Below are positions 9,687-48,566 of a stretch of DNA of 49,429 nt, in pieces. The notes below the pieces were generated by a model. The model ran no database searches. It had not been told where the DNA came from and was given only the letters and a program-made list of their open reading frames with translations. Position 1 is the stretch's first letter. Every line of letters starts with the position of its first letter. The stretch comes from an uncultured Granulosicoccaceae bacterium (GTDB taxonomy: Bacteria > Pseudomonadota > Gammaproteobacteria > Granulosicoccales > Granulosicoccaceae), in the NCBI GenBank assembly GCA_937951345.1, contig CALFCF010000013.1:1-49429 (forward strand), given 5' to 3'. The position numbers were made by a program, and so were the translations under genes.

Positions 9687-10787
9687 TTAATGTAGTTTTG
9701 CCTCTCCCAATGCGTTAACGATGGTGCTGGCATTGTGTCTCATCATATCAAGATAAGTCGCCGCCGGACCACTTTCAGCAGACAGCGCCCCCGGAAAAAG
9801 CTCACCACCGATAACAGCGCCGGTCTCATTGGCAACCTGCTGCATGAGTCTCTCGTCAGAGATGCTTTCAACAAACACGGCAGCAATATTTTCGACACGG
9901 ATTTGTTTGATCAATTCGGCGACATCACGTGCAGAAGGTTCACTTTCGGTGTTTACCCCTTGCGGCGCGACAAAATCCAATCCGTAGTCTCGAGCAAAAT
10001 ACTGAAACGCGTCATGTGATGTAACAACGGTACGGGCATCTGCCGGAAGTGAAGCTATCATCGTTTTGATTTCTTCATCCAGCATTTCTATTTCAGACAC
10101 ATAGCTGGCACGATTTTCATAAAAAGAAGCGGCGTGATGAGGTGCAATTTTCGCCAATGCTGCAGTGATGTTATCAACGTAAGTAATCGCGTTACGTAGA
10201 CTCTGCCATCCGTGCGGATCAAATTCACCGTGTGCATGATGATCTTCAGTATGCTCATCATCATGAGCATCACTGTTCCCATGGCCATGATCATCCTTGT
10301 GTTCATCATCGTGACCCTCACCATGCTCATGGTCGCCCTTGTGCTCATCAGCATGACCTTCGCTATGCTCGTCACCATGATCGTCCTCGTGATCTTCATC
10401 ATGATGGTCACTATGTTCATCACCATGTTCAAGAGTGATGAGCTTCATTCCATCAGTTGTTACAACCAGTTCGCCGTTAAACTGGGCCGCTTCAGCCAGG
10501 CGTTCTAACCAGCCTTCAAACAAAAGCCCATTAGTAAACATGATTTTGGCTTTAGCAACCGATTTCGCATCAGACGGATTAGGTTGAAATACGTGTGCAT
10601 CGCCATCACGCCCGACGAGGGTTGTTACATCCACATGATTACCACCAACACGTTCTACCATGTCACCGAGGATTGAAAAAGTGGCAACCACCGGAATGCG
10701 ATCTTGCGCTGTTGCCGAAAACGAGATAGCTGTGGTTGCAATTAGTACTGCGCTTACAAGTGCAAAAGGAATGCGGTGATGCTTCAT
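9687..10787 (-). CDS. znuA: Zinc ABC transporter, periplasmic substrate-binding protein ZnuA
   Basis: Captures zinc in the periplasm for the ZnuBC importer. A signal peptide ends at ATAQ near residue 28. The cluster A-I fold is visible: VVATFSILGDMVERVGG, then His65 (DAHVFQPNP) as first ligand, a very long His/Asp/Glu-rich loop at about residues 120-190, His192 (DPHGW) as second ligand, and VTSHDAFQYFARDYGL with the third. The acidic His loop contains near-repeats of a DEHxxxHxDEH pattern and is longer than the roughly 25-residue loop of E. coli ZnuA. Its repetitive codons also create spurious open frames on both strands. It is 52 bp after znuB on the minus strand. Confidence 0.93.
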   Translation of the reverse strand: MKHHRIPFALVSAVLIATTAISFSATAQDRIPVVATFSILGDMVERVGGNHVDVTTLVGRDGDAHVFQPNPSDAKSVAKAKIMFTNGLLFEGWLERLAEAAQFNGELVVTTDGMKLITLEHGDEHSDHHDEDHEDDHGDEHSEGHADEHKGDHEHGEGHDDEHKDDHGHGNSDAHDDEHTEDHHAHGEFDPHGWQSLRNAITYVDNITAALAKIAPHHAASFYENRASYVSEIEMLDEEIKTMIASLPADARTVVTSHDAFQYFARDYGLDFVAPQGVNTESEPSARDVAELIKQIRVENIAAVFVESISDERLMQQVANETGAVIGGELFPGALSAESGPAATYLDMMRHNASTIVNALGEAKLH

Positions 10788-10839
10788 GATTTAAAAGAGT
10801 TTGTTAGTAACGATTTTGCAGTGGTGTTGGGTCCGGGAA

Positions 10840-11709
10840 TCAGATATTTATCGCGCGACGTCCAGCTCGTAGCGCATACACGATACCGCCCTGCGTACCA
10901 AGGATTACCGAGAAAGAATAGAAAACACCGGCGACAAGGATGATCGCAGGGCCGGAAGGCAAACTAAAATAGTAGGAAAGCAGCAAACCAGTGAAGCTGG
11001 ACAACAATGCTATCGCGGCTGCCAGCACTATCAATCCACCAATTCTGACGGTCCAGAATTTTGCCGCCGCGCCAGGCAAAATCATAATACCCACAGCCAT
11101 CAATGTGCCCAGAGCATGGAAGCCGCCAACCAGATTCATGACCACAAGTGTCATAAAAATAAAATGTGTTAATGCACTCAAGCGGCTCACCGACCGCAGA
11201 AACTGAGAATCGGCACATTCAAGCACTAGCGGTCGGAAAAATACCGCCAATACAAAAAACGTCACTGATGCGATACAACAAAGCAGCGTTAACGCCGCAT
11301 CATCAAGCGCGAGCACCGAACCGAAAAGCACATGCATTAGATCAACATTGCTGCCGCGAGTGGAAATAATCAGAACGCCCAACGATAGGGATATCAGGTA
11401 AAAGGCAGCCAGACTCGCATCTTCACGTAAAGTTGTTACGCGGGTAACAAAGCCGGATAGCAGGGCGACCGACATACCTGCGATTAAGCCACCAACGGTC
11501 ATCGCCCCGAGAGACAGACCGGCAACCAGGTAACCAATGGCGGCTCCCGGCAAAATGGCATGCGCCATAGCGTCCCCGGTCAGACTCATGCGGCGTAGCA
11601 TCAGGAAAACGCCTAACGGTGTCGCTCCTACCGAAACGGCGACACAACCAAGCAGCGCCCGTCGCATGAAACCGAATTCAGCAAACGGTGAAAACAGTAG
11701 CTCGAACAT
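10840..11709 (-). CDS. znuB: Zinc ABC transporter, membrane permease ZnuB
   Basis: A 289-residue integral membrane protein of the ABC-3 family that forms the channel for zinc (or manganese). About eight hydrophobic segments are visible. MSLTGDAMAHAILPGAAIGYL near residue 40 and the late ALGTLMAVGIMILPGAAA block are typical of this family. Its ATG overlaps the stop of znuC in ATGA, which suggests translational coupling. The order znuC-znuB-znuA behind zur supports zinc over manganese. Confidence 0.92.
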   Translation of the reverse strand: MFELLFSPFAEFGFMRRALLGCVAVSVGATPLGVFLMLRRMSLTGDAMAHAILPGAAIGYLVAGLSLGAMTVGGLIAGMSVALLSGFVTRVTTLREDASLAAFYLISLSLGVLIISTRGSNVDLMHVLFGSVLALDDAALTLLCCIASVTFFVLAVFFRPLVLECADSQFLRSVSRLSALTHFIFMTLVVMNLVGGFHALGTLMAVGIMILPGAAAKFWTVRIGGLIVLAAAIALLSSFTGLLLSYYFSLPSGPAIILVAGVFYSFSVILGTQGGIVYALRAGRRAINI

Positions 11710-12452
11710 CAGGCCGAATGTCGATCACAGGAATGGGGAGGGCCGCCACAGGCCTCGCACATTTGGCGCGCACGGAATTGATTTTCCGCAGTGAGTACTT
11801 GCTCGGTTGGTCCGTGAGCAACCAGCTCTCGAGCCAGAAGAAGCGTATCCGGAAAATGCGAACGAACGGCATCCAGATCGTGCAGAACGGCAAGCACTGT
11901 GCGACCTTCTCCATGCCAGCGTTTTATTACTTCAATCAAATCAGACATGGTACTGGCGTCGATAGCATTGAAGGGTTCGTCAAGAAGTACCAATGGCGAA
12001 TCCTGCAACAACAAACGCGCAAACAACGCCCGTTGCACCTGACCACCGGACAGTGTGCCGATTGCGCGCTTCTCAAATCCTTCCAAGCCAACATGAGTCA
12101 GCGCTTCGGCTATGCGTCCGTAATGCGTTCGACCAATTCCGCCAAAAGCACCGACCTCACGCCACAATCCCATGGCAACCAACTCCTGTACTGAAATGGG
12201 GAATGAGCGATCGATCGCTGCGGTCTGCGGTAAATAAGCAATATCCTTATTTTCAGTATTGCCAAATGCCATACGACCGGATAAAGGCGGCAGCGACCCG
12301 GTCATGCCTTTAAGTAGCGTCGACTTGCCAGCACCGTTCGGTCCAACGACGGCCGTTAAACTTCCCTGGCTGATGGTCGTATCGAGCCCCATCACAGCGG
12401 GGTTGCGGTTATAACCAAGTGAATAATCTTCAAAAGCTATCGCGTAACTCAT
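11709..12452 (-). CDS. znuC: Zinc ABC transporter, ATPase ZnuC
   Basis: ATP-binding subunit of the zinc importer, 247 residues from the start I chose (MSYAIAFEDYSLGY). The Walker A is GPNGAGKSTLL, the Q-loop is in AYLPQ, the signature is LSGGQVQRALFARLL, Walker B is LVLLDEPFNAID and the switch His is in AVLHDLDAV. The C-terminus has a Cys/His cluster (CEACGGPPHSCDRH) that could bind zinc. The frame is open back to 12620 but that part overlaps zur and has no conserved residues, so the later ATG is preferred. A gap of 127 bp separates it from zur. Confidence 0.9.
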   Translation of the reverse strand: MSYAIAFEDYSLGYNRNPAVMGLDTTISQGSLTAVVGPNGAGKSTLLKGMTGSLPPLSGRMAFGNTENKDIAYLPQTAAIDRSFPISVQELVAMGLWREVGAFGGIGRTHYGRIAEALTHVGLEGFEKRAIGTLSGGQVQRALFARLLLQDSPLVLLDEPFNAIDASTMSDLIEVIKRWHGEGRTVLAVLHDLDAVRSHFPDTLLLARELVAHGPTEQVLTAENQFRARQMCEACGGPPHSCDRHSA

Positions 12453-12579
12453 AAACCACCCGGCGTGGCTGTTGCCCAGAAAAATAACAGCCAAAGGCAC
12501 ACAGTCAGCAAAGCTGCAATAACCAGACGACGGCCTGCGCCCCAGGTGACGAGTCCTATTGAAGGAGAGCGAAACCAGC

Positions 12580-12984
12580 TCACAGGGCTGCTCCATCTCG
12601 ACAGACGACACAGCGACCATGGAGCTCGATGACCTGGCGTGTCAAAGCGAATCCGGCGGCTCCCGCTACATCTGACAACGCTTCAAGTATCTGTGGTGCC
12701 ATAGTTTCCTCAACCGCACCGCAGTCATCACAAACTGACAGAACAGGGGTTTGGCGATGCTTCTTGCTGCGGCAAGCGATGTAAGCGTTCATGGATTCAA
12801 GACGGTGTACCAACCCTTTCTCGGCCAAGGCAGTCAGCGCCCGATAAACCGTCGGTGGTGCCACTTTCGGGTTCACTTGGCGCAGTTCTCCCAGCACGTC
12901 GTAGGCTGATAATGAGCCACTACTACCCCTCAGAACTTCCAGCACTTTCTGATGCCAATCCACTGTTCGTTTTTCTTTGCTCAC
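12580..12984 (-). CDS. zur: Fur-family zinc uptake regulator Zur
   Basis: Zinc-sensing repressor, 134 residues. A winged-helix domain occupies about 10-70 (PTVYRALTALAEKGLVHRLES), followed by a dimerisation domain with the structural zinc Cys pairs Cys85-x2-Cys88 and Cys125-x2-Cys128. Cys71 and His122 could contribute to the sensory site. The start codon is GTG. It is the first gene of zur-znuC-znuB-znuA-DUF1989, and the palindrome just upstream overlaps its likely promoter, so it is probably autoregulated and represses the transporter when zinc is plentiful. Genomic context, not a residue, separates it from Fur. Confidence 0.9.
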   Translation of the reverse strand: MSKEKRTVDWHQKVLEVLRGSSGSLSAYDVLGELRQVNPKVAPPTVYRALTALAEKGLVHRLESMNAYIACRSKKHRQTPVLSVCDDCGAVEETMAPQILEALSDVAGAAGFALTRQVIELHGRCVVCRDGAAL

Positions 12985-13003
12985 GCAGAATCCGGACTTT
13001 ATG

Positions 13004-13025
13004 GTGTTATGTTATAACATATCAT
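13004..13025. promoter_or_regulatory. Candidate Zur operator
   Basis: Contains the perfect 12-bp palindrome ATGTTATAACAT at 13009-13020, about 25 bp upstream of the zur start. It resembles the core of known gammaproteobacterial Zur boxes (GTTATA-TATAAC type) and overlaps a TATAAC that could serve as the -10 element of the zur operon. This would give zinc-dependent repression of all five genes. Confidence 0.75.
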
Positions 13026-13250
13026 CTCAGATTAGACACACTGACGCAATTGCACGTAATTGGATATTGCAGGAAGTGACTGCATTGAGTGTTGCAACAC
13101 CCCGGCAGAAGCGTTGAAGTTACTGCAATTTAGACGTGATCTGATCAGCAGCCGCTCACAGGGGCCACATTTTTTCTTGCTGAATGCGGTTTCCAAAGGG
13201 ATTCCAGCGAATTCACCACCGCAGGTGCAACAGTCTATGCACCCACTTGT

Positions 13251-14117
13251 TTAGAGCTGACGGTAAAAAATCAGAAAACTCCCTCCCAGCGCCAAACACA
13301 ATCCGATAATGGCAGAAACTGTCCAGATATAGGATTCGGCCACTGTTGATACCAGCATCGCGACTATCGGAAACAACACGGTTGCATAGCTTGCTCTTGC
13401 CGGGCCGACGCGTTTTAGCAATGACAGATAAGTGATAAATGCCAGCAGTGAAGAGACTACCGCCAGGTAGACAACGCCACCCCAGAACAATCCGGATGGT
13501 GGTATCACCCATGTCTCACGCGTTACCAGGCAGAGCAGGGTGAGTATCAACGCCCCCCAAGCCATCCCTTGACCAATAATATTGGGCAACGAATAGGTTT
13601 TAGCCAGCCGCATGGAAATTAAATTGCCGAGTGAAAATAGATAAGTGCCTGCAAGAGGTAACGCAATCGCCCACCAGTCGACTGATGTGGCGGACACATC
13701 GTGTATCTCCGGTCGCAATAGTAAATACAGGCCGATTGTCCCCATTACACCGGCGAGCAGTACATGCGCTTCGAACGCTGAGCGCAAAAACAGTCGCGCA
13801 TTGATCGCACCGAAAATTGCAGCGGTTGAAAAGATAACCGCTAACAGCCCGGAGGTCAGGTAATTGGCGGCTATATAAAAGCTTAGAAAATTCATCGAGA
13901 ACAAACAGAACCCCAGCAAAGCCAGCCAGACTTGATCCTGCCATGCAATAGAACGCCATTTACGAGTAACGACTAAACCTGCACACATCAACACCGCTGC
14001 CAGAATCGCCCGGTAGGTTAACGACAGGAGCGCTGACGCATCTGCAACCTGCAGAACCATTGCATACCAGGAAAACCCCCAGGAGAGTACAACAACAAAT
14101 AGTAATAGAATGGGCAT
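13251..14117 (-). CDS. EamA/DMT family permease
   Basis: A 288-residue membrane protein with about ten hydrophobic segments and the two-repeat EamA layout: VLSWGFSWYAMVLQ and LTYRAILAAVLM in the first half, FWGGVVYLAVVSSLLAFITYLSLLKRVGPARASYATVLFPIVAML in the second. Members export metabolites or drugs; the substrate is not predictable. It follows emrA by 36 bp on the same strand and is probably co-transcribed with marR-emrA. About 165 bp downstream of it, up to the zur operator, show nothing definite. Confidence 0.85.
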   Translation of the reverse strand: MPILLLFVVVLSWGFSWYAMVLQVADASALLSLTYRAILAAVLMCAGLVVTRKWRSIAWQDQVWLALLGFCLFSMNFLSFYIAANYLTSGLLAVIFSTAAIFGAINARLFLRSAFEAHVLLAGVMGTIGLYLLLRPEIHDVSATSVDWWAIALPLAGTYLFSLGNLISMRLAKTYSLPNIIGQGMAWGALILTLLCLVTRETWVIPPSGLFWGGVVYLAVVSSLLAFITYLSLLKRVGPARASYATVLFPIVAMLVSTVAESYIWTVSAIIGLCLALGGSFLIFYRQL

Positions 14118-34420: not shown

Positions 34421-34504
34421 GTAGATATTGTGCACCAAGTTGACCTGGCCGCTGAGTATTCTCAAGCACCTAAAGCTTTGAATACAGCGGGCAACGCCAA
34501 AGCG
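34421..34504. repeat. 84-bp direct repeat, left copy (DR-L)
   Basis: Identical at all 84 positions to 39483-39566, with the flanks diverging on both sides at once. The inner part is an imperfect inverted repeat: CCGCTGAGTATTC at 34449-34461 pairs loosely with the stretch ending in ATACAGCGG at 34482-34490. The forward frame is open through the whole copy. The last 17 bp plus four flanking bases (34488-34508) also occur inverted at 39609-39629 with 2 mismatches in 21. It sits between the P450 gene and the copper block. Confidence 0.95.
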
Positions 34505-34849
34505 GATTTGAAAGTATTCGCGCAAGAGGCAGGTAAATGGAAATGTCCGCGATAAATACCGACCCTCAATCTTCGACGACAATATTCTGCTTGTTTTGAT
34601 ACAAAGGAGTAATGACGTAGTACGACTTTTGCAGGTTTACGATCAATTATCAGACGTGACTAATGGAAAACAATGTATTGAAATCAGTGTAATCGTAACT
34701 TTATTTGACTCGACCCAAAACCGTCGAATTTTTAGAGGCTAATATATTGATTTTCATGGTATTTATTGTTTTGATCAAATGGCCTGTAACGCGCGTGCTA
34801 TAATCTATGTGTCGGTTAAACTCTCACAAGTGATTCCGGTGACGGTATA
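34505..34849. other. Leader region of the copper block
   Basis: A 345-bp gene-free region. The forward frame from the repeat runs on to a stop about 60 bp in. TATAAT at 34799-34804 is a good -10 box 46 bp before the first copper gene. TCGAC 34710-34714 and GTCGA 34723-34727 form a small hairpin followed by ATTTTT, perhaps a weak terminator for upstream readthrough. No CueR-type dyad (ACCTTCC/GGAAGGT) is seen, and no regulator gene lies inside the block. Confidence 0.4.
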
Positions 34850-35272
34850 ATGATATGTAGCTTCTTTAGTAAACGAGTCCTCGTTTATCGACTAATTCTA
34901 GTCGCGCTATGCGTGTGCCTATCATTCAGCACCGTTGCGAGCGCTATCATTATGGCTCCTCATAGCATGGCGACTCACGGTATGCCACAAGTTGTTGCCA
35001 GTGATCATATGACTCAGCATGATCAGTTTCATACAAGCAATCACGTTAAACACCACAACCCGAACCAACACGCGCAAATTCACATTTGTTGTGATGATGG
35101 CCATGAGGTTTGTTCAACGTCATCAGCCTGCGCCACTCATTGCGCCGCTTCATTTACACAAAGAGCGCTGAAACTTTGTCCCGTCATAACGATAATTGAT
35201 TTCGAAGCCGTCGCAGTATTTCTCGAGCCTGCGTCTCTTGACTTAGACGGCCCATTCAAACCCCCGCGTTAG
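34850..35272 (+). CDS. Secreted His/Met/Cys-rich protein, CopL-like
   Basis: A 140-residue protein with a signal peptide (VYRLILVALCVCLSFSTVASA) and a mature part loaded with possible copper ligands: MAPHSMATHGM, DHMTQHDQFHTSNHVKHHN, and a Cys cluster ICCDDGHEVCSTSSACATHC. Its position at the head of a copper operon and composition resemble CopL-type metal-binding proteins of xanthomonads, but sequence similarity was not tested. It could bind periplasmic copper or affect expression of the operon. The ribosome site is weak. Confidence 0.65.
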   Translation: MICSFFSKRVLVYRLILVALCVCLSFSTVASAIIMAPHSMATHGMPQVVASDHMTQHDQFHTSNHVKHHNPNQHAQIHICCDDGHEVCSTSSACATHCAASFTQRALKLCPVITIIDFEAVAVFLEPASLDLDGPFKPPR

Positions 35273-35372
35273 CCTCACTCCACCTGATGTGACGTTCACG
35301 ATTAGTCCACTTTGACTAACGTGGATACTTAAATATCCTCCAGAATTTCGTCTGGAAGTGGAGATAAAAACC

Positions 35373-35687
35373 ATGTCGAATCGATATCAGCGAGCGCCAG
35401 CGCTTGCTTGTTTTGTGCTCCTGTGGAGCTGTTTAGGCGTATCGCTAGCGCAAGAAATTCCAAAGGCAGAAGAGAAACAGGAGTCGGCTAATCCTGCATT
35501 TGTCTTCGACTATTTCTCGGTATTTGAAAATTATATTCCATTTGATGAAGTACCCGATATAAGTTGGCGTGATGCGAACGACGCCGTTGGCCAATTCGGT
35601 GGTTGGCGCGCCTACTTAAAACTGGTGCAAGAAGAAGCTAGGAGAAAAGCCGAGCAAGAAAAACAACAATCGGGGGACGATAAATGA
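35373..35687 (+). CDS. Small secreted protein of the copper block, unknown function
   Basis: A 104-residue protein from ATG 35373, which has GGAG 9 nt upstream; the earlier GTG at 35358 overlaps that site and is unlikely. A signal peptide ends LGVSLAQE. The mature part is short: an aromatic, acidic region (FDYFSVFENYIPFDEVPDISWRDAND) and a Lys/Glu/Gln-rich helical tail. It has no Cys and no Met- or His-rich segment, so it is not an obvious copper chelator. Its stop overlaps the start of the TolC-type gene, which points to translational coupling and a partner role. Confidence 0.7.
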   Translation: MSNRYQRAPALACFVLLWSCLGVSLAQEIPKAEEKQESANPAFVFDYFSVFENYIPFDEVPDISWRDANDAVGQFGGWRAYLKLVQEEARRKAEQEKQQSGDDK

Positions 35688-37093
35688 TGAAACGTGCTCC
35701 GATAATCTTGCTGGTATCACTGTTTGGTAGTGCAGGTTGTGTCCAATTTGATGTAAAACAATCGCTCTCAGAAACGAATAGCGCTTTGCCTGAATTTACC
35801 AATGGCAATCTTCAACTGCTAATTAGTGAAGATCAAAAAAACACTGCAAGAGAACGAACAAACGAATTACTCGCTGATGAGCTTAGCCAATCTTCAGCTA
35901 TAGAGGTAGCGTTGAAAAACAGTCCTGCGATACAGGCCATGCTCTCAGAATACTGGCAAGAATCTTCGGAAATAGCATCGTCCGGTAGTATTCCTAACCC
36001 TGTATTCGAATTTGAACGTGTTAGCTCTGATTCTGAACTAGAGATCGAACGGCTACTATCCATTGGGCTGCTGGATCTTATCCGTTTACCAACGTTAAAG
36101 CGCAAGGCTGAGCTAAAACTTGACGTCAATCGCTTAGCCTTGAGCAGTAATGTTGTGGAGCACGTAACGGAAGTTAGAAATGCATGGGTAAATGCCGTAG
36201 CTGAACAACAGCTGGCTACTTATGCAGCGCAGGTATTCTCCAGCGCTGAAGCCAGCGCTAAGCTAGCTGCCAACATGCAGGCAATTGGGAACTTCAATAC
36301 GCTCTCTCGAGCGAAGCAACAAGTTTATTATGCTAATGCTGCCACCAACCTAACAACTGCTCGACACTCCGCTTTGGCTGCCCGCGAAGCATTGGTGAGA
36401 ACACTTGGGCTTAATAATCGTCAAGCAACAACGCTAATACTGCCTGAACGTCTTCAAGATTTACCCGATACACCCATATCAGCTGAAGAGGTCTCATCTG
36501 TTGGGGCGACAAGTCGCCTGGATGTGCAAATGGGCTTGGCGGATGTAAAAATGGCAGGCTTCGCACAAGGCATCACCTTACTCGACGAGATTACTGATAT
36601 AGAAATTGCTGGTATCTCAGAAACGGTTTGGAACGAAGACGAAAGAGAAAGCAGTACCGGCTATGAATTAGGTATTGAGATACCGATATTTAAAAGTGTT
36701 TCACAAGTGCGTGATCGCTTAAACGCAAAATCACTATCAGTTACCAATCGGCTTGAAAGTATCACACGTTCAGCGAATTCACATCTGCGAGAAGCTTACT
36801 CTGCTTACCGCTCCAGTTATGATCTGGCTAAGCATTATCGCGACGAGATCGTTCCACTACAACAACTTATCTCCGAAGAAAACGTACTCAATTACAACGG
36901 TATGATCATCGGTGTATTTGAGCTGCTGGCCGACTCACGCACACAGATCGAAGCAGTGCAGTCCTCTATTCAAGCAACCAGACAATTTTGGATGGCTGAT
37001 GCAGCACTGCGCTCAGCCATGATTGGCAAACCAACTGCAATGGTATTTGAGATGTCTGCAGGTGGCAATGAAAGTGGAGGAGAGGAACATTAA
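35684..37093 (+). CDS. TolC-family outer-membrane lipoprotein
   Basis: A 469-residue outer-membrane factor with lipobox FGSAGC (Cys19). It has the duplicated coiled-coil/beta-barrel layout of the OEP family: AIEVALKNSPAIQAMLSEYW near 70, then long amphipathic helices, with a second repeat starting near residue 280 (SRLDVQMGLADVKM) and IEIPIFKSVSQVRDRLNA. In Cus-type systems this subunit works with CusA and CusB, but neither is encoded here. It may instead help export or secrete with unlinked partners. It overlaps the upstream gene (ATGA). Confidence 0.85.
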   Translation: MMKRAPIILLVSLFGSAGCVQFDVKQSLSETNSALPEFTNGNLQLLISEDQKNTARERTNELLADELSQSSAIEVALKNSPAIQAMLSEYWQESSEIASSGSIPNPVFEFERVSSDSELEIERLLSIGLLDLIRLPTLKRKAELKLDVNRLALSSNVVEHVTEVRNAWVNAVAEQQLATYAAQVFSSAEASAKLAANMQAIGNFNTLSRAKQQVYYANAATNLTTARHSALAAREALVRTLGLNNRQATTLILPERLQDLPDTPISAEEVSSVGATSRLDVQMGLADVKMAGFAQGITLLDEITDIEIAGISETVWNEDERESSTGYELGIEIPIFKSVSQVRDRLNAKSLSVTNRLESITRSANSHLREAYSAYRSSYDLAKHYRDEIVPLQQLISEENVLNYNGMIIGVFELLADSRTQIEAVQSSIQATRQFWMADAALRSAMIGKPTAMVFEMSAGGNESGGEEH

Positions 37094-37138
37094 TATCTAT
37101 CTACGAGTTAAACATAAATACTGTTTTCGGAGGCAAAA

Positions 37139-38536
37139 ATGACTTCGCGTAGAAAATTCTTAACCAATGCAGGTATCGCCGGAGCAGTAGCGGCGAGCAC
37201 AGTGGCAAAAAGCTCACTTGCCGGTATACCAGAAATTGTGCTTCAGGATAGCGCAGAAACCATGCCGCCACTGGTACCACCTAACGGAAGACATTACCAC
37301 CCCGTGGTGACACCTAACGGATGGTCTTTACCTTGGCGGATGAATGCTGGTGTTAAAGAGTTTCACCTGGTCGCAGAGCCAGTACTGCGTGAAATGGCAG
37401 AAGATTTTACCGCTCATCTGTGGGGATACAACGGCCAATCACCCGGGCCCACTATTGAAGTCGTAGAAGGTGACAAGGTACGAATTTTTGTTACCAATCG
37501 GCTGCCAGAGCACACCAGTGTACATTGGCACGGACAGCGCTTGCCTAACGGTATGGATGGCGTAACGGGATTAAACCAACCCGGTATCCCATCAGGCAAA
37601 ACGTTTGTGTATGAATTTACCGCGCGGCGACACGGTACCTTTATGTATCACCCACATGGTGATGAGATGACACAAATGGCAATGGGCATGATGGGCTCCT
37701 GGGTAACCCATCCTAAAGACCATGTTCATGATGAAATCGATCGGGACTTTTGCATATTGTTGTCAGGTTTTGACATTGACCCCGGTAGCGCAACACCAAA
37801 GGTCATGACTATGCTCGATTTTAATCTTTGGGCATGGAACAGTCGCATATTTCCCGGTATAGATTCCTTGAACGTTCGACACAATGATCGAGTACGGGTT
37901 CGCATTGGCAATCTAACCATGACCAACCATCCGATACATTTACATGGGCATGAGTTTGTCGTTTCCGGCACCGACGGTGGTCCTACATCTCCAGGATCAA
38001 GGTGGCCTGAAGTTACCACTGATATTGCGGTGGGCCAAATGCGACAAATCGATTTCCTGGCTGACGAAGAGGGTGACTGGGCATTTCATTGCCATAAAAG
38101 CCATCACACCATGAATGCCATGGGGCATGACGTGCCAACATTGATCGGTGTTGATCATCGAGAGGTCGCCGCGCAAATCACCGACCTAATTCCGGATTAC
38201 ATGGTCATGAGTGAGCGTGGAATGGCCGACATGACTGAAATGGAAATGCCGCTACCCGATAACACGGTACCGATGATGACAGGGGAAGGCCCGTTTGGTT
38301 CGGTAGAAATGGGTGGAATGTTTTCAATGGTTAAAGTGCGCAAGGATCAAGCACCTGATGATTACTCTGACCCGGGCTGGTTCAATCATCCAGAGGGGAC
38401 CGTAGCCTTTGAATATAATGGTCCAATGCCAGAGGTACAAAGATCATCCGATGCGGGTAACAGCTCAATGCCAACAAGCGAGAAAGCCAACCACACAACC
38501 GAAGTTCAAGTAAAAGGTTTTGAAAAAAGCGGTTAA
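37139..38536 (+). CDS. Two-domain multicopper oxidase (CopA/CueO-like function)
   Basis: A Tat-exported (SRRKFL) periplasmic oxidase of 465 residues that probably oxidises Cu(I). Trinuclear-site ligands are HWH at 129-131, HPH at 171-173, His267 and His269 of HPIHLHGH, and HCH at 317-319. The type 1 ligands are His264, Cys318, His323 and Met328. Only 93 residues separate HPH from HPIHLHG, against about 300 in CueO, so the middle cupredoxin domain is missing. A Met-rich segment follows at about 355-398 (MADMTEMEMPLP, MGGMFSM), suited to bind copper. GGAGG precedes the ATG. Confidence 0.92.
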   Translation: MTSRRKFLTNAGIAGAVAASTVAKSSLAGIPEIVLQDSAETMPPLVPPNGRHYHPVVTPNGWSLPWRMNAGVKEFHLVAEPVLREMAEDFTAHLWGYNGQSPGPTIEVVEGDKVRIFVTNRLPEHTSVHWHGQRLPNGMDGVTGLNQPGIPSGKTFVYEFTARRHGTFMYHPHGDEMTQMAMGMMGSWVTHPKDHVHDEIDRDFCILLSGFDIDPGSATPKVMTMLDFNLWAWNSRIFPGIDSLNVRHNDRVRVRIGNLTMTNHPIHLHGHEFVVSGTDGGPTSPGSRWPEVTTDIAVGQMRQIDFLADEEGDWAFHCHKSHHTMNAMGHDVPTLIGVDHREVAAQITDLIPDYMVMSERGMADMTEMEMPLPDNTVPMMTGEGPFGSVEMGGMFSMVKVRKDQAPDDYSDPGWFNHPEGTVAFEYNGPMPEVQRSSDAGNSSMPTSEKANHTTEVQVKGFEKSG

Positions 38537-38641
38537 TTATCGATTAAACAATATAAACTCTAAATGTATTATCTCTGAATAACGCTCTAGTTCTACTGAG
38601 GGTTTTCAGAGCGAAAGCTAACGACACAAAGGGGAAAAACC

Positions 38642-38953
38642 ATGAACACAACGATACAAATTATTTTCTCAGCTATATTTGCTTTAGCAACTATAGTCAG
38701 TCCGTCAACGGCGATGGCTGACGAGGAACTACCAAAAGTTATGGGAGAAGTCAAAAAGGTTAAGGCTAAATCTGGAAAAATCACAATCAAACACGAACCC
38801 ATTCCTAATTTGGATATGCCAGGTATGTCGATGGTCTTTCGAATTAATGAAGGGGTTGATATTACCCAATACAAAAAGGGCGATGCAGTGGAATTCACTG
38901 TGGTAGAGCGCGACGGAAAAATGGTGATTCTATCTATCGATAAATCTGAGTAG
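38642..38953 (+). CDS. CusF-like periplasmic copper-binding protein
   Basis: A 103-residue protein with a signal peptide ending TAMADEE and a CusF-type OB fold. The copper motif is HEPIPNLDMPGMSMVF: His51, Met62 and Met64 match His36, Met47 and Met49 of E. coli CusF, while the Trp44 that caps copper there is Met59 here. That gives a possible extra Met ligand. AAGGGG is upstream. It is 9 bp before the cupredoxin gene, so the two are co-transcribed. Confidence 0.9.
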   Translation: MNTTIQIIFSAIFALATIVSPSTAMADEELPKVMGEVKKVKAKSGKITIKHEPIPNLDMPGMSMVFRINEGVDITQYKKGDAVEFTVVERDGKMVILSIDKSE

Positions 38954-38962
38954 GGGACTACG

Positions 38963-39469
38963 ATGACCAAAGTATTTATCAAATCGATTGCTAAAACACT
39001 CTTTGTGCTAACTATCGGCATTACCATAAGCTCGTTAGTCTTTGCACACGGTGAGAATAAACATGAAAACGAAGCAGCCGACTTTGACGCGGTAACGACT
39101 GAATTTGGTAGTTATCAGCCTGATCTTGAACCAACCAAGACCATTGAAATTTCAATGGCAGATACCATGCGCTTCTCTCCAGCGATGCTCACAGTAAAAA
39201 GTGGCGATGTGGTAAAATTTTTAGTTTCCAACGAAGGTGCATTGCAACATGAATTTGTGTTGGGTACGCCAGGATCCCTAGCGGAGCATGCTGAACTCAT
39301 GATTAAATTCCCGAGCATGGAACATGAAGAACCTTATATGGCACACGTTGATCCAGGCAAGGAAATGGAAATCGTTTGGCAGTTTTCAAAAGCCGGAGCT
39401 TTTGAATTCGGTTGCTTGTTGCCCGGCCATTTTCAGGCGGGCATGAAAGGCATTATCACAGTGGAATAA
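38963..39469 (+). CDS. Periplasmic cupredoxin (CopI-like)
   Basis: A 168-residue blue-copper protein with a signal peptide ending SSLVFAHG. Type 1 ligands are His96 (LQHEFVLG), Cys151, His156 and Met161 in FGCLLPGHFQAGM. A linker with His and Glu (HGENKHENE) follows the signal. CopI-type cupredoxins protect against copper in the periplasm. It is the last gene of the copper block; the right 84-bp repeat begins 13 bp after its stop. Confidence 0.9.
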   Translation: MTKVFIKSIAKTLFVLTIGITISSLVFAHGENKHENEAADFDAVTTEFGSYQPDLEPTKTIEISMADTMRFSPAMLTVKSGDVVKFLVSNEGALQHEFVLGTPGSLAEHAELMIKFPSMEHEEPYMAHVDPGKEMEIVWQFSKAGAFEFGCLLPGHFQAGMKGIITVE

Positions 39470-39482
39470 CCATTATCACACG

Positions 39483-39566
39483 GTAGATATTGTGCACCAA
39501 GTTGACCTGGCCGCTGAGTATTCTCAAGCACCTAAAGCTTTGAATACAGCGGGCAACGCCAAAGCG
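39483..39566. repeat. 84-bp direct repeat, right copy (DR-R)
   Basis: Identical to 34421-34504 and in the same orientation, so the copper block (34505-39482, about 5.0 kb) lies between two perfect copies. The bases just outside differ at both ends. No integrase or transposase gene lies between the copies. Confidence 0.95.
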
Positions 39567-39629
39567 CATACTTGTTCTAAATCAGACACTGATTTCATCA
39601 GAATAACTAATCCGCTTTGGTGCTGCCCG
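39550..39629. repeat. Imperfect inverted repeat overlapping DR-R
   Basis: CGGGCAACGCCAAAGCG at 39550-39566 pairs with CGCTTTGGTGCTGCCCG at 39613-39629 (15 of 17), with a 46-nt centre. The right arm extends to AATCC at 39609 and then matches the left repeat junction (34488-34508) better than DR-R itself. It may be one end of a transposable unit or an inserted palindromic element. Confidence 0.6.
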
Positions 39630-39715
39630 GTTTGTTAACGCTGTAGTTTTGTTGGTTGGTAAAAACAGTCTGATTAAAAAGACGTTACACCACAAAAGTT
39701 GGCCACTAATTCCTT

Positions 39716-41557: not shown

Positions 41558-41617
41558 GTAAAGGTGATCACCCACTTCTGAATGCGTAGATGCTCATTCG
41601 CAGTGTAAACTCCACGG

Positions 41618-42577
41618 ATGAGTAAGGAATTTACAGACCTGGATAAACGCCTTAACGCAGCAGCGATCACCACGCGTTCATCCGTCACACACTACGATAT
41701 CACCACGCTGCGCCTTTTCGTGTCAGTAGTAGAGCAGGGCAATATCGCGCAGGCGTCGCGCATCAACCACATTGCTGCATCAGCGATCAGTAAACGTATT
41801 TCTGACCTCGAAGCGCGCGTTGGTGTCAATCTGCTCTATCGCTTGCGCGGTGGTGTAGAACCGACAGAGGCTGGCAGTGCCGTGTTACGTCGAGCAAAAC
41901 GTATCCTGCTGTTGCTAGAGGATATGGAAGCTGAGTTAAGCGAATATACCAATGGTATGCGAGGACAGGTTCGATTGTGGGCGAACACCTCAAGTATTAC
42001 TCAATTCCTGCCTGAGGATTTAACGGATTACGTGGAACGCTTTCCAGAGGTTGGTATCGAACTACGCGAGGAAACCAGCCAGGCTATTGTCGATGGTGTT
42101 CGCGAGGGCCTTACTGATGTCGGCGTTTTTTCCGGACATATTGCAAGCGGTGATCTGGAAACACGTACCTATCGTCACGACAACCTCATGGTCATTCTTC
42201 CACCCAATCATCCATTAGAATCCTTTGAGCGATTAACGCTTGCCGACATTGCACCCTACGATAATGTAGGCCTGCAGGATGGCAGTTCACTACAACACAA
42301 ACTCATGAACGAGGCCGCTGCACTAGACATTCCACTGAGATTTCGCGTGAAAGTGCTGGGCTTCGATGGTATTCGCCGTATGGTCGAGGCAGGCCTCGGA
42401 TTGGCGGTGCTGCCCGAGGGCGCTGTCATTCCTTACATCAACATGGGTGGATTCTCCGCGGTTAAGTTCGACGAACCCTGGGCAGCGCGTTCGCTGATGC
42501 TGGGTTTCAGGGACTACAAGTCGTTGCCGGTAGTTGCACGCACCTTAATTGAGTGTTTAGCACCGGCTCCGTCGTAA
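41618..42577 (+). CDS. LysR family transcriptional regulator
   Basis: A 319-residue LysR regulator. The helix-turn-helix is in LFVSVVEQGNIAQASRINHIAASAISKRISDLEARVGVNLLYRL (about 33-76), with 27 extra residues ahead of it. The effector domain (VRLWANTSSITQFLPEDLTDYVERFP onward) is complete. It lies upstream of, and reads in the same direction as, the GMC dehydrogenase operon, which it probably activates. Confidence 0.92.
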   Translation: MSKEFTDLDKRLNAAAITTRSSVTHYDITTLRLFVSVVEQGNIAQASRINHIAASAISKRISDLEARVGVNLLYRLRGGVEPTEAGSAVLRRAKRILLLLEDMEAELSEYTNGMRGQVRLWANTSSITQFLPEDLTDYVERFPEVGIELREETSQAIVDGVREGLTDVGVFSGHIASGDLETRTYRHDNLMVILPPNHPLESFERLTLADIAPYDNVGLQDGSSLQHKLMNEAAALDIPLRFRVKVLGFDGIRRMVEAGLGLAVLPEGAVIPYINMGGFSAVKFDEPWAARSLMLGFRDYKSLPVVARTLIECLAPAPS

Positions 42578-42596
42578 GCAGAGTCTCGAACCAAGA

Positions 42597-42634
42597 TGCC
42601 TACCCTCGTCATTAAAGAATGGTGAAGGCAGGCA
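42597..42634. terminator. Terminator-like hairpin after lysR
   Basis: The arms 42597-42613 and 42618-42634 pair at 15 of 17 positions (two G-T pairs included) around a 4-nt loop AAAG, followed by AAATTT. It lies 20 bp after the LysR stop and separates that gene from the GMC dehydrogenase operon. Confidence 0.75.
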
Positions 42635-42715
42635 AAATTTGCGATGCTTTGAGAGGAACCGGGGTTGGATACTTGCGCGCCCTGTCAACCACATTCCCTG
42701 GAAGGTGAATCGTTT

Positions 42716-44356
42716 ATGTCCGCTGCTGCAGATGTTTTTGATTACGTCATCATCGGTGGCGGAACGGCAGGTGCACTGCTGACCAAACGCCTTAGTGAAG
42801 ATGGCGCCAGCGTTTGTCTGCTCGAAGCAGGACCACGCGACTTAAACCCGCTGATACACATTCCCGCTGGTTACATCAAGAATATCTATTCGAATCGCCT
42901 GACCTGGGGCTTCGAAGCAGAACCCGGTGCAGGTACCGCACAACGTCGGTTTTCGCTGCCGCAAGGTCGCGTGCTGGGTGGCTCCAGTTCGATTAACGGA
43001 CTCAATCACAACCGCGGGCAAAGTGCAGACTTTGATCATTGGGCCGAGCGTGGCAATCCGGGGTGGTCCTATAACGAGGTGCTTCCTTATTTTCGTCGCA
43101 GCGAATGCAGGATCGGCGAAGCCGACGAACGCTACCGCGGGCGTGATGGTGAAATACCGATAACTGACCTCGATTGGCATCACCCGGTATCCTCGGCGTT
43201 TGTTAATGGCGCACAGGAACTCGGTATTTCTAAAAATCCAGACTACAACGCAGCGCAACAGGCAGGTGCCGGATATTTCCAACGCTACATAAATAAAGGC
43301 GTTCGTGTCTCGTCTGCACGCGCTTTTCTGGGTAGCACAAGAAAAAGACCAGGCGTTAAGATTCGCACCCGCGCGCAAGCGACGAAAATCCTGTTTGACG
43401 GTAAACGTGCCGTGGGCGTACGTTATATGAAAGGAGGCCATTCCGGCGAGGAGCGCACAGTAGCAGCTCGTCGCGAAGTTATCGTCTCTGCAGGCACAAT
43501 CAATACCGCAAAATTGTTACAACTATCCGGGGTAGGAGACGCAGGATTACTGGGTGATCTCGGTGTTCCCGTGGTTCATCACTTGCGCGGTGTCGGCAAT
43601 CATTTGCGTGACCATTATGGGGTACGCATGGTGTCGAGAGTAAAGGGCATCAGTACCATTAACAACCGGGTGCAGGGACCACCGCTGCTTTTAGAGATTG
43701 CCCGCTGGTTGATTCGAAAACCGAGCCTGCTGGCAGTTAGCCCGTCACTCGCACATGTATTCTGGAAGTCTGACAAGAAGATGACCAACCCCGATTTACA
43801 GTTTGTCTTTACACCCGCGAGTTTCCGCGAAGGCGTCGTGGGGCTGCTCGACAAACAGCCCGGAATGACCTGCGGCGTATGGCAGGAACGACCGGAAAGC
43901 ACTGGTTTTGTTCGAGCGCGTTCTGCAAACCCACTAGAGACACCCATCGTTCAGCCAAATTATCTGGCGGAAGAAACCGACCAACAAATACTGCTGGCCG
44001 GTATGCGTCTTGGTCGGCGCTTGATGCGCACTGCTGCGTTGGCACCCTATTTTGAATACGAAACAGCGCCGGGAGACGACGTGCAGACAGATGACGAGTT
44101 CCTCGATTTTGCGCGCCATACCGGAACAACGGTGTACCACCTGATTGGCACAGCACGGATGGGGCCTGACTCGGATCCCGATGCGGTGGTGGATGCTCAG
44201 CTACGTGTGCATGGCGTCGACGGGTTGCGTGTCGTTGATGCCTCTATCATGCCGACCATGCCATCGGCTAATACTAATGCAGCGACACTGATGATTGCAG
44301 AGAAGGGCGCAGATATGATTCTGGGATTGGCGCCGCTCGGCACGGTTGAAGCTTAA
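42716..44356 (+). CDS. GMC family FAD-dependent alcohol dehydrogenase
   Basis: A 546-residue oxidoreductase of the choline dehydrogenase/AlkJ type. The FAD site is YVIIGGGTAGALLTKRL, GRVLGGSSSINGLNHNRG is the first GMC signature, and HLIGTARMGPDSDPDAVVD with VVDASIMPTMPSANTNAATLMIAEKGA holds the catalytic His and C-terminal FAD contact. It oxidises a primary alcohol to aldehyde and probably passes electrons to the respiratory chain. ATG 42716 has GAAGGTG upstream; an earlier TTG lengthens it without conserved residues. Confidence 0.92.
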   Translation: MSAAADVFDYVIIGGGTAGALLTKRLSEDGASVCLLEAGPRDLNPLIHIPAGYIKNIYSNRLTWGFEAEPGAGTAQRRFSLPQGRVLGGSSSINGLNHNRGQSADFDHWAERGNPGWSYNEVLPYFRRSECRIGEADERYRGRDGEIPITDLDWHHPVSSAFVNGAQELGISKNPDYNAAQQAGAGYFQRYINKGVRVSSARAFLGSTRKRPGVKIRTRAQATKILFDGKRAVGVRYMKGGHSGEERTVAARREVIVSAGTINTAKLLQLSGVGDAGLLGDLGVPVVHHLRGVGNHLRDHYGVRMVSRVKGISTINNRVQGPPLLLEIARWLIRKPSLLAVSPSLAHVFWKSDKKMTNPDLQFVFTPASFREGVVGLLDKQPGMTCGVWQERPESTGFVRARSANPLETPIVQPNYLAEETDQQILLAGMRLGRRLMRTAALAPYFEYETAPGDDVQTDDEFLDFARHTGTTVYHLIGTARMGPDSDPDAVVDAQLRVHGVDGLRVVDASIMPTMPSANTNAATLMIAEKGADMILGLAPLGTVEA

Positions 44357-44541
44357 TTCACACGTTTCAGTAAACGAGCATCTATACAAAACACTGAGAG
44401 TGTTGCTTTGAACCGTTTATTGATGCCATCTTAACATTGAGATTGTGCGCTCAGCCAAGGTCTGTGGCGCTCGAGCAACACAGAGCGGCACATAACGCAA
44501 GATCAGCGTGCAGGACTAGGCGTCCCCGATCGATTTTGAGA

Positions 44542-44557
44542 TGGCTTCATGAAGCCA
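44542..44557. promoter_or_regulatory. Perfect 16-bp palindrome before the dehydrogenase gene
   Basis: TGGCTTCATGAAGCCA is a perfect palindrome ending 22 bp before the start codon at 44580, a position where a bound protein would block transcription or translation. No GntR- or LacI-type regulator is encoded next to it, so the binding protein is unknown. Confidence 0.5.
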
Positions 44558-44579
44558 GGACAAGAAAGAGAATCAGTAT

Positions 44580-45473
44580 ATGAACGTTGGATTTGTGGGT
44601 GTTGGTCAAATGGGCGGCCCGATGGCGATCAATCTCGCATCAGGTTATAAGGTGATCGCCCATTGTCGGAATGATACCGACCGTAACGCGCTGCAAGGTG
44701 CCGGCATATCCGTTACCGAAAACTTGCAAGCGCTTGGTGAAGCAGACGTTATCTTCCTGTGTTTACCTGACACCGACATCGTTGAACAGGTTCTGTTTGG
44801 GGAACATGGTCTGGCAGAGGTTTTACGTTCGGGAACGGTGATTGTTGATACCAGCACCATTGCCTATGGTGCGACGCTTTCTATTGCAGAAAAATTGGCT
44901 TCGCATGATGTAAAGTTTATCGATGCGCCCATATCCGGCATGAGAGCACGTGCTGAGGACGGCAGTCTGACCATGATGTGTGGCGGAGATCAAAGCCTGG
45001 TCGACGAACTCAAGCCGCTGCTTTCAACCATGGCCTCAAAAATCATTTATATGGGCCCGGTGGGTAGTGGGCAACTCACCAAACTGATCAATCAACTTCT
45101 TTTCGATATTAATGCCGCCGCCCTGGCCGAGATTCTACCGCTGGCAGTAAAGCTTGGGCTCGATCCAACCAAAGTCGGTGACGTTGTAAATAGTGGAACC
45201 GGGGGCAGCTATGCCTCGGAATTTTTTATCCCGCATATTTTAAATGGCGTGTTTGACCAAGGATATCCTCTGAAAAAAGCCTACAAGGATTTAATTAGCG
45301 GATCCGGAATATCCGCTCAGCATCAAATTCCGACGCCTGTTTTATCGGCGGCAATGGCAACTTATCAGACGGCTTTATTAGCCGGACATAGCGACAAAGA
45401 TAAAGGCGGGATGATTTGCGTCTTTGAAGATTTGCTTGACGTTAAGTTTCGATCCGACGGTCAGGAAGAATAA
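44580..45473 (+). CDS. NAD(P)-dependent 3-hydroxyisobutyrate dehydrogenase-family protein
   Basis: A 297-residue beta-hydroxyacid dehydrogenase. The cofactor site is VGFVGVGQMGGPMAINLA. The substrate loop DAPISGMRARAEDGSLTMMCGG departs from the common DAPVSGG form, and the catalytic Lys is in GSGQLTKLINQLL near residue 170. Members act on 3-hydroxyisobutyrate, tartronate semialdehyde, 6-phosphogluconate or related acids. It is 5 bp ahead of the dehydratase gene, so both are in one operon. The substrate cannot be set from sequence. Confidence 0.9.
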   Translation: MNVGFVGVGQMGGPMAINLASGYKVIAHCRNDTDRNALQGAGISVTENLQALGEADVIFLCLPDTDIVEQVLFGEHGLAEVLRSGTVIVDTSTIAYGATLSIAEKLASHDVKFIDAPISGMRARAEDGSLTMMCGGDQSLVDELKPLLSTMASKIIYMGPVGSGQLTKLINQLLFDINAAALAEILPLAVKLGLDPTKVGDVVNSGTGGSYASEFFIPHILNGVFDQGYPLKKAYKDLISGSGISAQHQIPTPVLSAAMATYQTALLAGHSDKDKGGMICVFEDLLDVKFRSDGQEE

Positions 45474-45478
45474 TCGAC

Positions 45479-47182
45479 ATGACTAAAAAACAAGGTTTAA
45501 AACGTAACCTAACCAACTATGGCGATAGTGAATTCGCAACCTATCTGCGTAAATCGTTTGCGCGTTCGATGGGCATTTCCAACGACATGCTGGATAAGCC
45601 GATTGTTGGCATTGCCATGACCCCTTCGGGTTTTAATAGCTGTCATCGCGGCATGCCGGAACTGGTGGACGCCGTTTCGCGCGGCGTGCTCGCGGCAGGA
45701 GCGTTGCCTCGACCTTTCCCTACTATATCGCTAGGCGAAGTTTTCCTCAGTCCAACCTCCATGGTTTATCGCAACCTGATGGCGATGGATACCGAGGAAA
45801 TGGTGCGGGCCCAACCGATGGATGCTGTTGTCATGATCGGCGGATGCGACAAAACGGTACCAGCTCAGCTAATGGGAGCTGCATCGGCGAACATCCCGAC
45901 CATCCAACTGGTGACCGGCCCCATGTCAACAGGGAGACATCGTGGTGAACGCCTGGGCGCTTGTACGGATTGTCGCCGCTTTTGGGCAAAGTTTCGCGCT
46001 AATGAGATTGATCATGCAGAGATTTCAGAAATCGAAGGAAAACTATCGACAACCTCAGGCACCTGCGGCGTTATGGGCACGGCAAGTACGATGGCCTGCA
46101 TCGCAGAAACGCTCGGTATGTCTTTGCCAGATACTGCTGCCATACCCTCAGTGCATTCTGAGCGCTTGGTGGCTGCTGAAGAAACAGGGCGCTCCGTTGT
46201 TCAACTAATCCATGCTCCAATACTTCCAAGCGAAATCATTACTGAAAAGTCAGTTGAAAACGCTTTTCGTGTACTTATGGCAGTCAGTGGTTCGACCAAT
46301 GCAATCGTCCATCTCACTGCAGTTGCAGGTCGTCTGGGGTTAAAGATTTCCCAAGAGCGCCTCAATCAAATATCCGATGAAACCCCTGTTCTGGTTAATT
46401 TGAAACCGGTGGGTGAAGGCTATATGGAAGATTTCTATGCTGCTGGTGGTGTGCGTGCAGTGTTGCATGAGATCAAGCACTTGCTTCATCTCGATACAAT
46501 TAACGTTGCTGGACAGTCGCTGGCGGAAATCCTTGCAGAGCCGATGGATTGGGTAGATCGTCGATATATCAAATCATACGATGATCCGGTTTCCGATGTC
46601 GGTGGATTGATTTCAATAAAAGGCAACATCGCCCCCGACGGAGCGATATTCAAACGCGCGGCAGCCACCCCCGAGTTGTTTGAAGTCGAAGGTCGGGCCG
46701 TTGTGTTTGAAGATCTGGAAGATCTCTCTACCCGTATTGATGATCCTGATCTTGACGTACAGGCGAATGATTTCCTTGTCTTAAAAAACGCAGGTCCAGT
46801 GGCTGCAGGTATGCCCGAAGCCGGCTACCTGCCTATCCCGAAGAAGCTCGCTCAAAAAGGCGTAAAAGACATGGTGCGGATATCAGATGCACGCATGTCC
46901 GGCACCGCATTTGGAACCATTATCCTCCACGTATCCCCGGAAACGGGTATCGGCGGTCCATTAGCGGCGGTCGAAACAGGGGATCGTATCCGTTTCTCAG
47001 TAAAAAACAAGCGTATCGATTTATTGGTTGAAGACCAGATCATAGTCGATCGATTAAAAAACAAAAAACCCGCCAAAACACCAACTCGTGGTTATCGGTC
47101 GCTATATAGCAAGACTGTATTGCAGGCCACAGATGGTTGCGACTTTGATTTTCTCCTTCATGCTCCGGAGGAATCCAGGTGA
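45479..47182 (+). CDS. IlvD/Edd family sugar-acid dehydratase
   Basis: A 567-residue Fe-S dehydratase that removes water from a 2,3-dihydroxy acid to give a 2-keto-3-deoxy acid. Cluster Cys are in FNSCHRG, GGCDKT and SGTCGVMGTASTMAC; the C-terminal catalytic Ser region is ARMSGTAFGT. The PIVGIAMTPSGFNSCHRG start and the 567-residue length fit the sugar-acid branch (arabinonate or xylonate type) more than IlvD itself. With the flanking dehydrogenases it suggests oxidation of an aldose or polyol to an acid, then dehydration. Confidence 0.9.
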   Translation: MTKKQGLKRNLTNYGDSEFATYLRKSFARSMGISNDMLDKPIVGIAMTPSGFNSCHRGMPELVDAVSRGVLAAGALPRPFPTISLGEVFLSPTSMVYRNLMAMDTEEMVRAQPMDAVVMIGGCDKTVPAQLMGAASANIPTIQLVTGPMSTGRHRGERLGACTDCRRFWAKFRANEIDHAEISEIEGKLSTTSGTCGVMGTASTMACIAETLGMSLPDTAAIPSVHSERLVAAEETGRSVVQLIHAPILPSEIITEKSVENAFRVLMAVSGSTNAIVHLTAVAGRLGLKISQERLNQISDETPVLVNLKPVGEGYMEDFYAAGGVRAVLHEIKHLLHLDTINVAGQSLAEILAEPMDWVDRRYIKSYDDPVSDVGGLISIKGNIAPDGAIFKRAAATPELFEVEGRAVVFEDLEDLSTRIDDPDLDVQANDFLVLKNAGPVAAGMPEAGYLPIPKKLAQKGVKDMVRISDARMSGTAFGTIILHVSPETGIGGPLAAVETGDRIRFSVKNKRIDLLVEDQIIVDRLKNKKPAKTPTRGYRSLYSKTVLQATDGCDFDFLLHAPEESR

Positions 47183-47216
47183 ATAATTTCAGCCCTAACT
47201 TTCCGATGAAACCGCT

Positions 47217-48566
47217 ATGAATCTTTTCACCAAACTCCAACAACGTGGACAAGAAAATAACCCTATTAAAGTCGGGCTAATTGGCGGCGGAAAATTCGGC
47301 ACCATGTTTTTATCCCAGGTTATTCGTTTGCCGGGAATTCATGTCGTGGGCATAGCTGATTTATCACCGGCTGCCGTTCGATCAAACCTTGAATTACTGA
47401 ATTGGCCTCCTGATTTGTACAATGCCACTGGCATCGACGAAGCCGCTGGCAAAGGCACCACTTATGTTACTGATAACTGGCAGGATCTGACGAAACAACC
47501 GAATATAGAAATCATCATCGAAGCCACAGGCAACCCGATTGCTGCTATTGAGCACTGCATGGGTGCTTTTTCGGAAGGCAAGCATGTGATCAACGTAACG
47601 GTTGAAGCTGATGCTTTTTGTGGCTATGGACTGGCGTTAAAAGCGCATCAAGCCGGTGTGATCTACAGCATGGCTTATGGCGATCAGCCAGCCTTGGCCT
47701 GCGACCTGGTTGATTGGGCGCGTACCTGCGGATTCAAAGTTGTAGCAGCAGGAAGAGGGCATAAATGGTTGCCACATTATCGCCAGTCAACCCCAGACAC
47801 AGTGTGGGACCACTGGGGGCTGACAGCGGAACAGGCCGAAAGAGGGCGCTTGAATCCCAAAATGTTCAATGCCTTTCTGGATGGATCAAAGCCTGCGATT
47901 GAATCAGCCGCTATTGCCAACGGCACTGGCCTGGATGCACCAACCAATGGTCTGGAATTCCCTCCCGGTGCAATTGATGACATCCCCTCAATCATGCGTC
48001 CTGAATCCGAAGGCGGCATTCTGGAACGCAAAGGCATGGTAGAGGTTGCATCATGTCTGACACGGGACGGGCAACAAATCCAGCATGACATTCGAAAAGG
48101 TGTTTGGGTTTGTTTCGAAGCAGATACCGAATACCTTAAAAATTGCTTTGAAGAATACAAAGTTGTGACTGATCCGTCCGGCAGGTATATGACCAATTAC
48201 AAACGCTGGCATTTAATCGGGCTGGAACTAGCGGTTTCGGTTGCAGCTGTGGGCTTGCGAGGTGAAGCAACCGGTTTTGCCACCTCGTTTAGAGCGGATG
48301 TAGCGGCAATCGCCAAACGCGATCTCGCTGAGGGAGAAACGCTCGATGGTGAAGGTGGCTACACTGTCTCTGGCGGATTACGCCCGGCTTCAATTTCGGT
48401 TGAAAAAGGATATTTGCCTTTAGGGCTGGCGCATAACGTCACACTCAAAAGCTCCATTTCAGAAGGTCAGCCAGTGACATGGCAAGACGTAGACATCGAT
48501 ACCACGACAACGGCCTATAAACTACGTAAAGAGATTGAATCAAAGGTGGCTGGGATTAAAGACTAG
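47217..48566 (+). CDS. NAD(P)-binding oxidoreductase with C-terminal SAF-like domain
   Basis: A 449-residue protein. VGLIGGGKFGTMFLSQV at the start is a Rossmann site, followed by EATGNPIAAIEHC and GKHVINVTVEADAFCG, as in homoserine dehydrogenase-like proteins. The C-terminal 80 residues (AKRDLAEGETLDGEGGYTVSGGLRPA and YLPLGLAHNVTLKSSISEGQPVTW) look like a SAF domain. Such proteins occur in sugar-acid catabolism clusters, but I do not know a proven reaction. It is 34 bp after the dehydratase and probably the last gene of its operon. Confidence 0.8.
   Translation: MNLFTKLQQRGQENNPIKVGLIGGGKFGTMFLSQVIRLPGIHVVGIADLSPAAVRSNLELLNWPPDLYNATGIDEAAGKGTTYVTDNWQDLTKQPNIEIIIEATGNPIAAIEHCMGAFSEGKHVINVTVEADAFCGYGLALKAHQAGVIYSMAYGDQPALACDLVDWARTCGFKVVAAGRGHKWLPHYRQSTPDTVWDHWGLTAEQAERGRLNPKMFNAFLDGSKPAIESAAIANGTGLDAPTNGLEFPPGAIDDIPSIMRPESEGGILERKGMVEVASCLTRDGQQIQHDIRKGVWVCFEADTEYLKNCFEEYKVVTDPSGRYMTNYKRWHLIGLELAVSVAAVGLRGEATGFATSFRADVAAIAKRDLAEGETLDGEGGYTVSGGLRPASISVEKGYLPLGLAHNVTLKSSISEGQPVTWQDVDIDTTTTAYKLRKEIESKVAGIKD

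Follow-up and report, generated by a model that had tools for sequence, protein, structure and literature searches.

An 84-bp sequence, which we call R, stands twice in direct orientation around a six-gene copper operon of an uncultured Granulosicoccaceae bacterium. With slightly less than even confidence, we favour the reading that the two copies are the passive scar of a rearrangement by which a copper operon, truncated and moving horizontally, came to lie between a P450 gene and orf213. This reading is built on established features of the locus, namely the R repeats, their uniqueness, the truncation of the operon, its incongruent kinship and an IS-bracketed parallel in the same genus. The window, that is, the whole stretch of DNA analysed here (49,429 nucleotides), is one whole contig of a draft genome of 4,486,775 bases in 115 contigs.

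The repeat pair and the copper block

R1 (34421-34504) and R2 (39483-39566) agree at 84/84 positions in the same orientation, as a sequence-only reading of the window had reported, and lie 5062 bp apart from start to start. The flanks diverge as abruptly as that reading described: the first bases outside R already differ, R1 standing between TCA and GATT and R2 between ACG and CATA. Its argument that perfect identity over 84 bp excludes chance holds, and the identity is compatible with the recent event or gene conversion that it invoked. The R pair is the only direct repeat of at least 30 bp in the window. In 825 kb sampled from this genome, the remaining close exact repeats of at least 75 bp fell into a short-period tandem array, a pair spaced by 186 bp or one repetitive region with a spacing of 1.5-1.8 kb. 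The features of the locus are as follows.

34421-34504, plus strand: R1, direct repeat copy 1, about 28 bp upstream of the start codon of the P450 gene (minus strand)
34421-34552, plus strand: reading frame open across R1 and on into the block (VDIVHQVDLAAEYSQAPKALNTAGNAKA/DLKVFAQEAGKWKCPR*), with gene-like codon usage and no homologue found
34850-35272, plus strand: CopL-like secreted metal-binding protein, with which the block opens (NF033807, 22.9 bits, below the cut-off of 40)
35358-35687, plus strand: small conserved copper-operon protein of 109 aa, no family, at the same place in the operons of relatives
35684-37093, plus strand: TolC/OEP outer-membrane efflux protein (PF02321)
37139-38536, plus strand: multicopper oxidase (MCO) with a Tat-type signal (PF07732, PF07731, TIGR01409)
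38642-38953, plus strand: CusF periplasmic copper-binding protein (PF11604)
38963-39469, plus strand: CopI-like cupredoxin, with which the block closes (PF00127; scores for CopI models under the cut-offs)
39483-39566, plus strand: R2, direct repeat copy 2, beginning 13 nt past the CopI stop codon
39550-39633, no strand: long imperfect palindrome spanning the right end of R2 and the flank beyond it (DNA fold z -5.9, RNA fold z -4.9)
39609-39646, minus strand: diverged inverted partner of R (39-nt alignment, 77%; score 36, with 500 shuffles reaching at most 28)

Between R1 and R2 lie six ORFs in operon order and no additional gene. They had been described as six copper-handling genes and nothing else. 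The count stands and four of them are copper or efflux genes by Pfam, but the CopL-like and CopI-like calls fall below the NCBIfam cut-offs and the 109-aa ORF belongs to no family. A multicopper oxidase, a cupredoxin, CusF and an outer-membrane protein are found in one operon, the combination that defines a copper-tolerance operon, and the gene order of the block recurs in many family relatives. The operon itself probably encodes an ordinary periplasmic copper-detoxification system. The base composition of the block is similar to that of its surroundings.

Occurrence of R in other genomes

A search of the whole genome for the 84 bp, proposed in the sequence-only reading as a check for a dispersed repeat family, returned two copies in the 4.49-Mb draft, both in the window, and no such family. 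R was found neither in 47 family relatives nor, two short weak matches aside, in 191 other genomes sampled across the class. As there are only two copies in the genome and none in relatives, R is not a repeat family. Both weak matches were taken as chance, one (G132, L004) lying inside an ORF of the opposite strand, the second (G101, L005) in an unrelated region. As a piece of a known gene, phage or plasmid, R had no credible match in Pfam, NCBIfam, PHROGs, PDB, plasmids, phages or viral contigs, and as an RNA it had none in Rfam. Compared with three dispersed families of its own genome it showed no likeness, and it has no similarity to the IS end of G001, the same-genus genome described below.

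Two other repeats were noticed in the window. Positions 2934-3050 belong to a dispersed family whose copies share up to about 140 bp exactly and occur on many contigs of the genome and at the contig ends of C36. A 127-bp repeat at 44422-44549, between the GMC and dehydrogenase genes, has five more copies (83-90%) on other contigs.

Signatures of mobile elements

The block had been said to contain no integrase. It contains none, and no recombinase was found among the ORFs of the window as a whole, Pfam included. There is no tRNA or IS in the window, and six-frame translations of the flanks gave no transposase remnant. R has no terminal inverted repeats, neither IS sequence nor 8-bp target duplication was found at the locus, and the R junctions show no microhomology. 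The RYYYAAC...GTTRRRY arrangement of integron attC sites was not found on inspection of R and of the palindrome at 39550-39633. With R present twice only and with neither a transposase remnant nor terminal inverted repeats, the locus does not have the form of a composite or IS6-type transposon. R, which is not dispersed, likewise lacks the inverted ends of a MITE or TIME-COMP, and no recombinase lies in or beside the block as in an integrase-type island.

Two of the origins suggested earlier gain no support from these searches. A mobile palindromic element is not supported, given the copy number, the missing terminal inverted repeats and the missing target duplication; nor is an attachment-site pair, given a window with neither recombinase nor tRNA, and the lack of a third copy or empty site. 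A broader version of the latter idea would make the block a small non-autonomous integrative element, with R as an att site duplicated by a recombinase encoded elsewhere (attL-block-attR) and excision as a 5,062-bp circle. The exact R-block-R geometry agrees with it, as do the folding of R as single-stranded DNA (better than shuffles, z -3.9) and the known circularisation of recombinase-less islands (PMC5426353); at least five tyrosine-recombinase loci, on other contigs of the genome, could act in trans. We nevertheless consider it unlikely: no third R occurs in the genome or in relatives, other copper loci do not carry R, no recombinase or tRNA is near, and as RNA R folds barely above shuffles (z -1.25). 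Its more specific form, a 5,062-bp integrase-less copper cassette that integrates and excises at the 84-bp site via a host recombinase in trans, is quite unlikely.

Copper loci of relatives

Copper genes without the repeats in related strains had been named as a finding that would refute the sequence-only reading. Nearly all relatives with readable flanks, in other species and genera, show just this, and since they carry the operon without R, R is not part of the copper unit itself. In the 98 copper loci compared (76 of which extend 4 kb or more upstream and 3 kb or more downstream), the longest exact flanking direct repeat outside the window was 31 bp. Direct repeats around copper loci are not a general rule, exact ones reaching at most 31 bp in other loci and diverged ones occurring in few; some of the latter are mere gene paralogues, such as CusF in locus L119. 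Around a Rhodoferax copper operon (L100) there is an 83-bp, 82% direct repeat (5832-5914 and 10742-10824) with a third copy at 4731-4805, which may be a shared promoter or a dispersed repeat.

A sensitive comparison of flanks in the 15 family loci where these were usable revealed one further case. In G001 (L131), of the same genus, the copper operon lies between 48-bp direct repeats (6515-6562 and 12078-12125) with 42/48 identities (88%). One copy starts 4 nt past the last cupredoxin stop codon; the outer copy abuts a decayed, frameshifted transposase (12126-12701) of the IS240/IS6 type (DDE_Tnp_IS240, PF13610, 30 bits against a cut-off of 27). The 48-bp repeats read as the decayed ends of two directly repeated IS6-family copies, one of them cut to 48 bp; directly repeated copies of this kind typify the family (PMC7986276). 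They are unrelated in sequence to R.

The copies of R might similarly be the remains of a decayed transposon-type element that bracketed the operon. G001 shows such an arrangement within the genus, cargo is enclosed by directly repeated elements in the IS6 family (PMC7986276), and in Polynucleobacter hallstattensis (L118) the operon lies between 222-bp, 86% MITE-like repeats with inverted ends and a third copy nearby (7817-8033, 12720-12940 and 1732-2056). However, R resembles neither the G001 IS nor the three dispersed repeat families of its genome, its flanks hold no transposase remnant, and 84/84 identity is odd for a decayed sequence. We give this origin a small chance.

Probable movement of the operon and its shortened right end

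The kinship of the operon differs from that of its left flank. In a comparison of few genes, with a G041 contig that begins inside the oxidase gene, the MCO C-terminus, CusF and CopI proteins are 85, 83 and 83% identical to G041, a member of another genus, versus 73, 63 and 59% to G001. The sulfite reductase protein of the left flank is 51% identical to its best match in G041 versus 63% to G002, of the same genus as the window. Since the operon is closer to another genus while the sulfite reductase is closer to the same genus, the operon looks horizontally acquired. The DNA similarity to G041 ends exactly at the CopI stop codon. Beyond it, G041 encodes a second cupredoxin and a cytochrome c, and operons in other relatives likewise extend past CopI. 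Thus, the operon of the window has been shortened on its right side, 13 nt before R2. To judge from G001, separate rearrangements seem to have brought in copper operons repeatedly in this family.

G002 shows no synteny across the loci that flank the block: there, the P450 relatives lie apart from the LysR/GMC locus. The LysR/GMC/dehydratase region of the window (41601-48559) is 84% identical to G002 in DNA, the sulfite reductase just 69%, and the similarity of the former begins abruptly, 17 nt before the LysR start codon. Next to the LysR/GMC locus, the G002 contig (L180) encodes a reverse transcriptase of the group II intron type and a long protein with DSDGDGIPD repeats (78-1481 and 10715-13618).

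Origin of the repeats

R1 looks like the copy in native context. It is favoured as such because an open frame continues through it into the block, as far as 34552, with codon usage at the 99th percentile of open wrong-frame stretches, and because the match between R1 and the inverted partner of R extends four bases (GATT) past the end of R, where R2 has CATA. The palindrome, made of the right end of R2 and the inverted partner, links R to the right flank, and can be read as deriving R from the target, that is, as a target duplication. Neither set of signals settles the order of events.

R2 might also owe its origin to local templated copying or gene conversion of 84 bp from R1 (or R1 to the same from R2), in an event independent of how the operon arrived. 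The palindrome at R2 is a plausible fork-stalling site, and the abrupt boundaries and native appearance of R1 would suit such copying. This explanation is improbable, as it leaves to coincidence that R2 falls at the operon end, 13 nt past the last stop codon, and that in G001 too the operon lies between direct repeats. An assembly artefact, with the copies of R collapsed into one node and P450-R-block-R-right flank picked as the wrong path, is about as improbable. The genome is a single draft of 115 contigs and an exact 84-bp repeat is close to short-read assembler word lengths, but one contig spans both R copies, and the sole alternative circuit through the same joins would be a free 5-kb circle, for a block without a replication gene.

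Under the scar reading, which we tentatively prefer, a segment from R to just past CopI would have come in by insertion, or by a tandem duplication that was later trimmed; either course would repeat the leftmost 84 bp of the segment behind CopI. Such a scar could also stem from a decayed transposon, on the pattern of G001. We infer both the order of events and the passivity of the repeats. Several points count against this reading: neither an empty site nor a donor locus carrying R was found, the junctions lack microhomology, R2 is tied to the right flank by the palindrome, and R is unlike the IS of G001. An over-length insertion, or a duplication plus trimming, also requires two breakpoints.

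Deletion of the block by recombination between the repeats, as predicted in the sequence-only reading, is possible in principle. Homologous recombination or slippage between R1 and R2 would remove the 5,062-bp unit, leaving a left flank-R-CATACTTG join on the chromosome and a CopI-R-GATT join in any circle. Because R is long enough for homologous recombination, loss of the block now and then is plausible.

Comparison with known systems

The locus provides a small testable case of metal-tolerance operons moving between marine bacteria and leaving direct repeats behind. It also bears on whether such repeats let a population switch an operon off by deletion, as the R pair could still permit the copper genes to be lost in one step. 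In three species, 10-18% of the variable segments have direct repeats at their ends, mostly of less than 30 bp (PMC2884548); R is longer than most of these repeats.

In the IS6 family, directly repeated copies flank cargo in pseudo-compound transposons and translocatable units (PMC7986276). The copper locus shares cargo between direct repeats, and the G001 operon has IS6-family remnants, but at the locus itself neither IS sequence nor terminal inverted repeats were found, nor an 8-bp target duplication. TIME-COMPs are composite structures bounded by MITEs (PMC13367494), and likewise hold a resistance block between two short identical sequences, whereas R, at 84 bp, has no terminal inverted repeats and is not repeated elsewhere. 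Proteobacterial copL/TolC/multicopper oxidase/cusF/copI operons have the same gene content and order in family relatives; that of the window is shorter at its 3' end and bracketed by R.

Low-frequency excision is known for recombinase-less blocks enclosed by long direct repeats; an example is the 13-kb microcin H47 island of E. coli, which has imperfect repeats of 144-148 bp and for which excision and empty sites were demonstrated (PMC5426353). The copper block resembles it as a small block with long direct repeats and no recombinase of its own, and differs in that its repeats are perfect and 84 bp long and that it is known here from sequence alone. Unconventional circularizable structures with resistance genes, including circular forms, were reportedly described by Palmieri et al. 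in 2013. The copper block, so far a sequence record, shares with both systems the long direct repeats of recombinase-less circularisable blocks; like the latter, it holds resistance genes between direct repeats and no recombinase.
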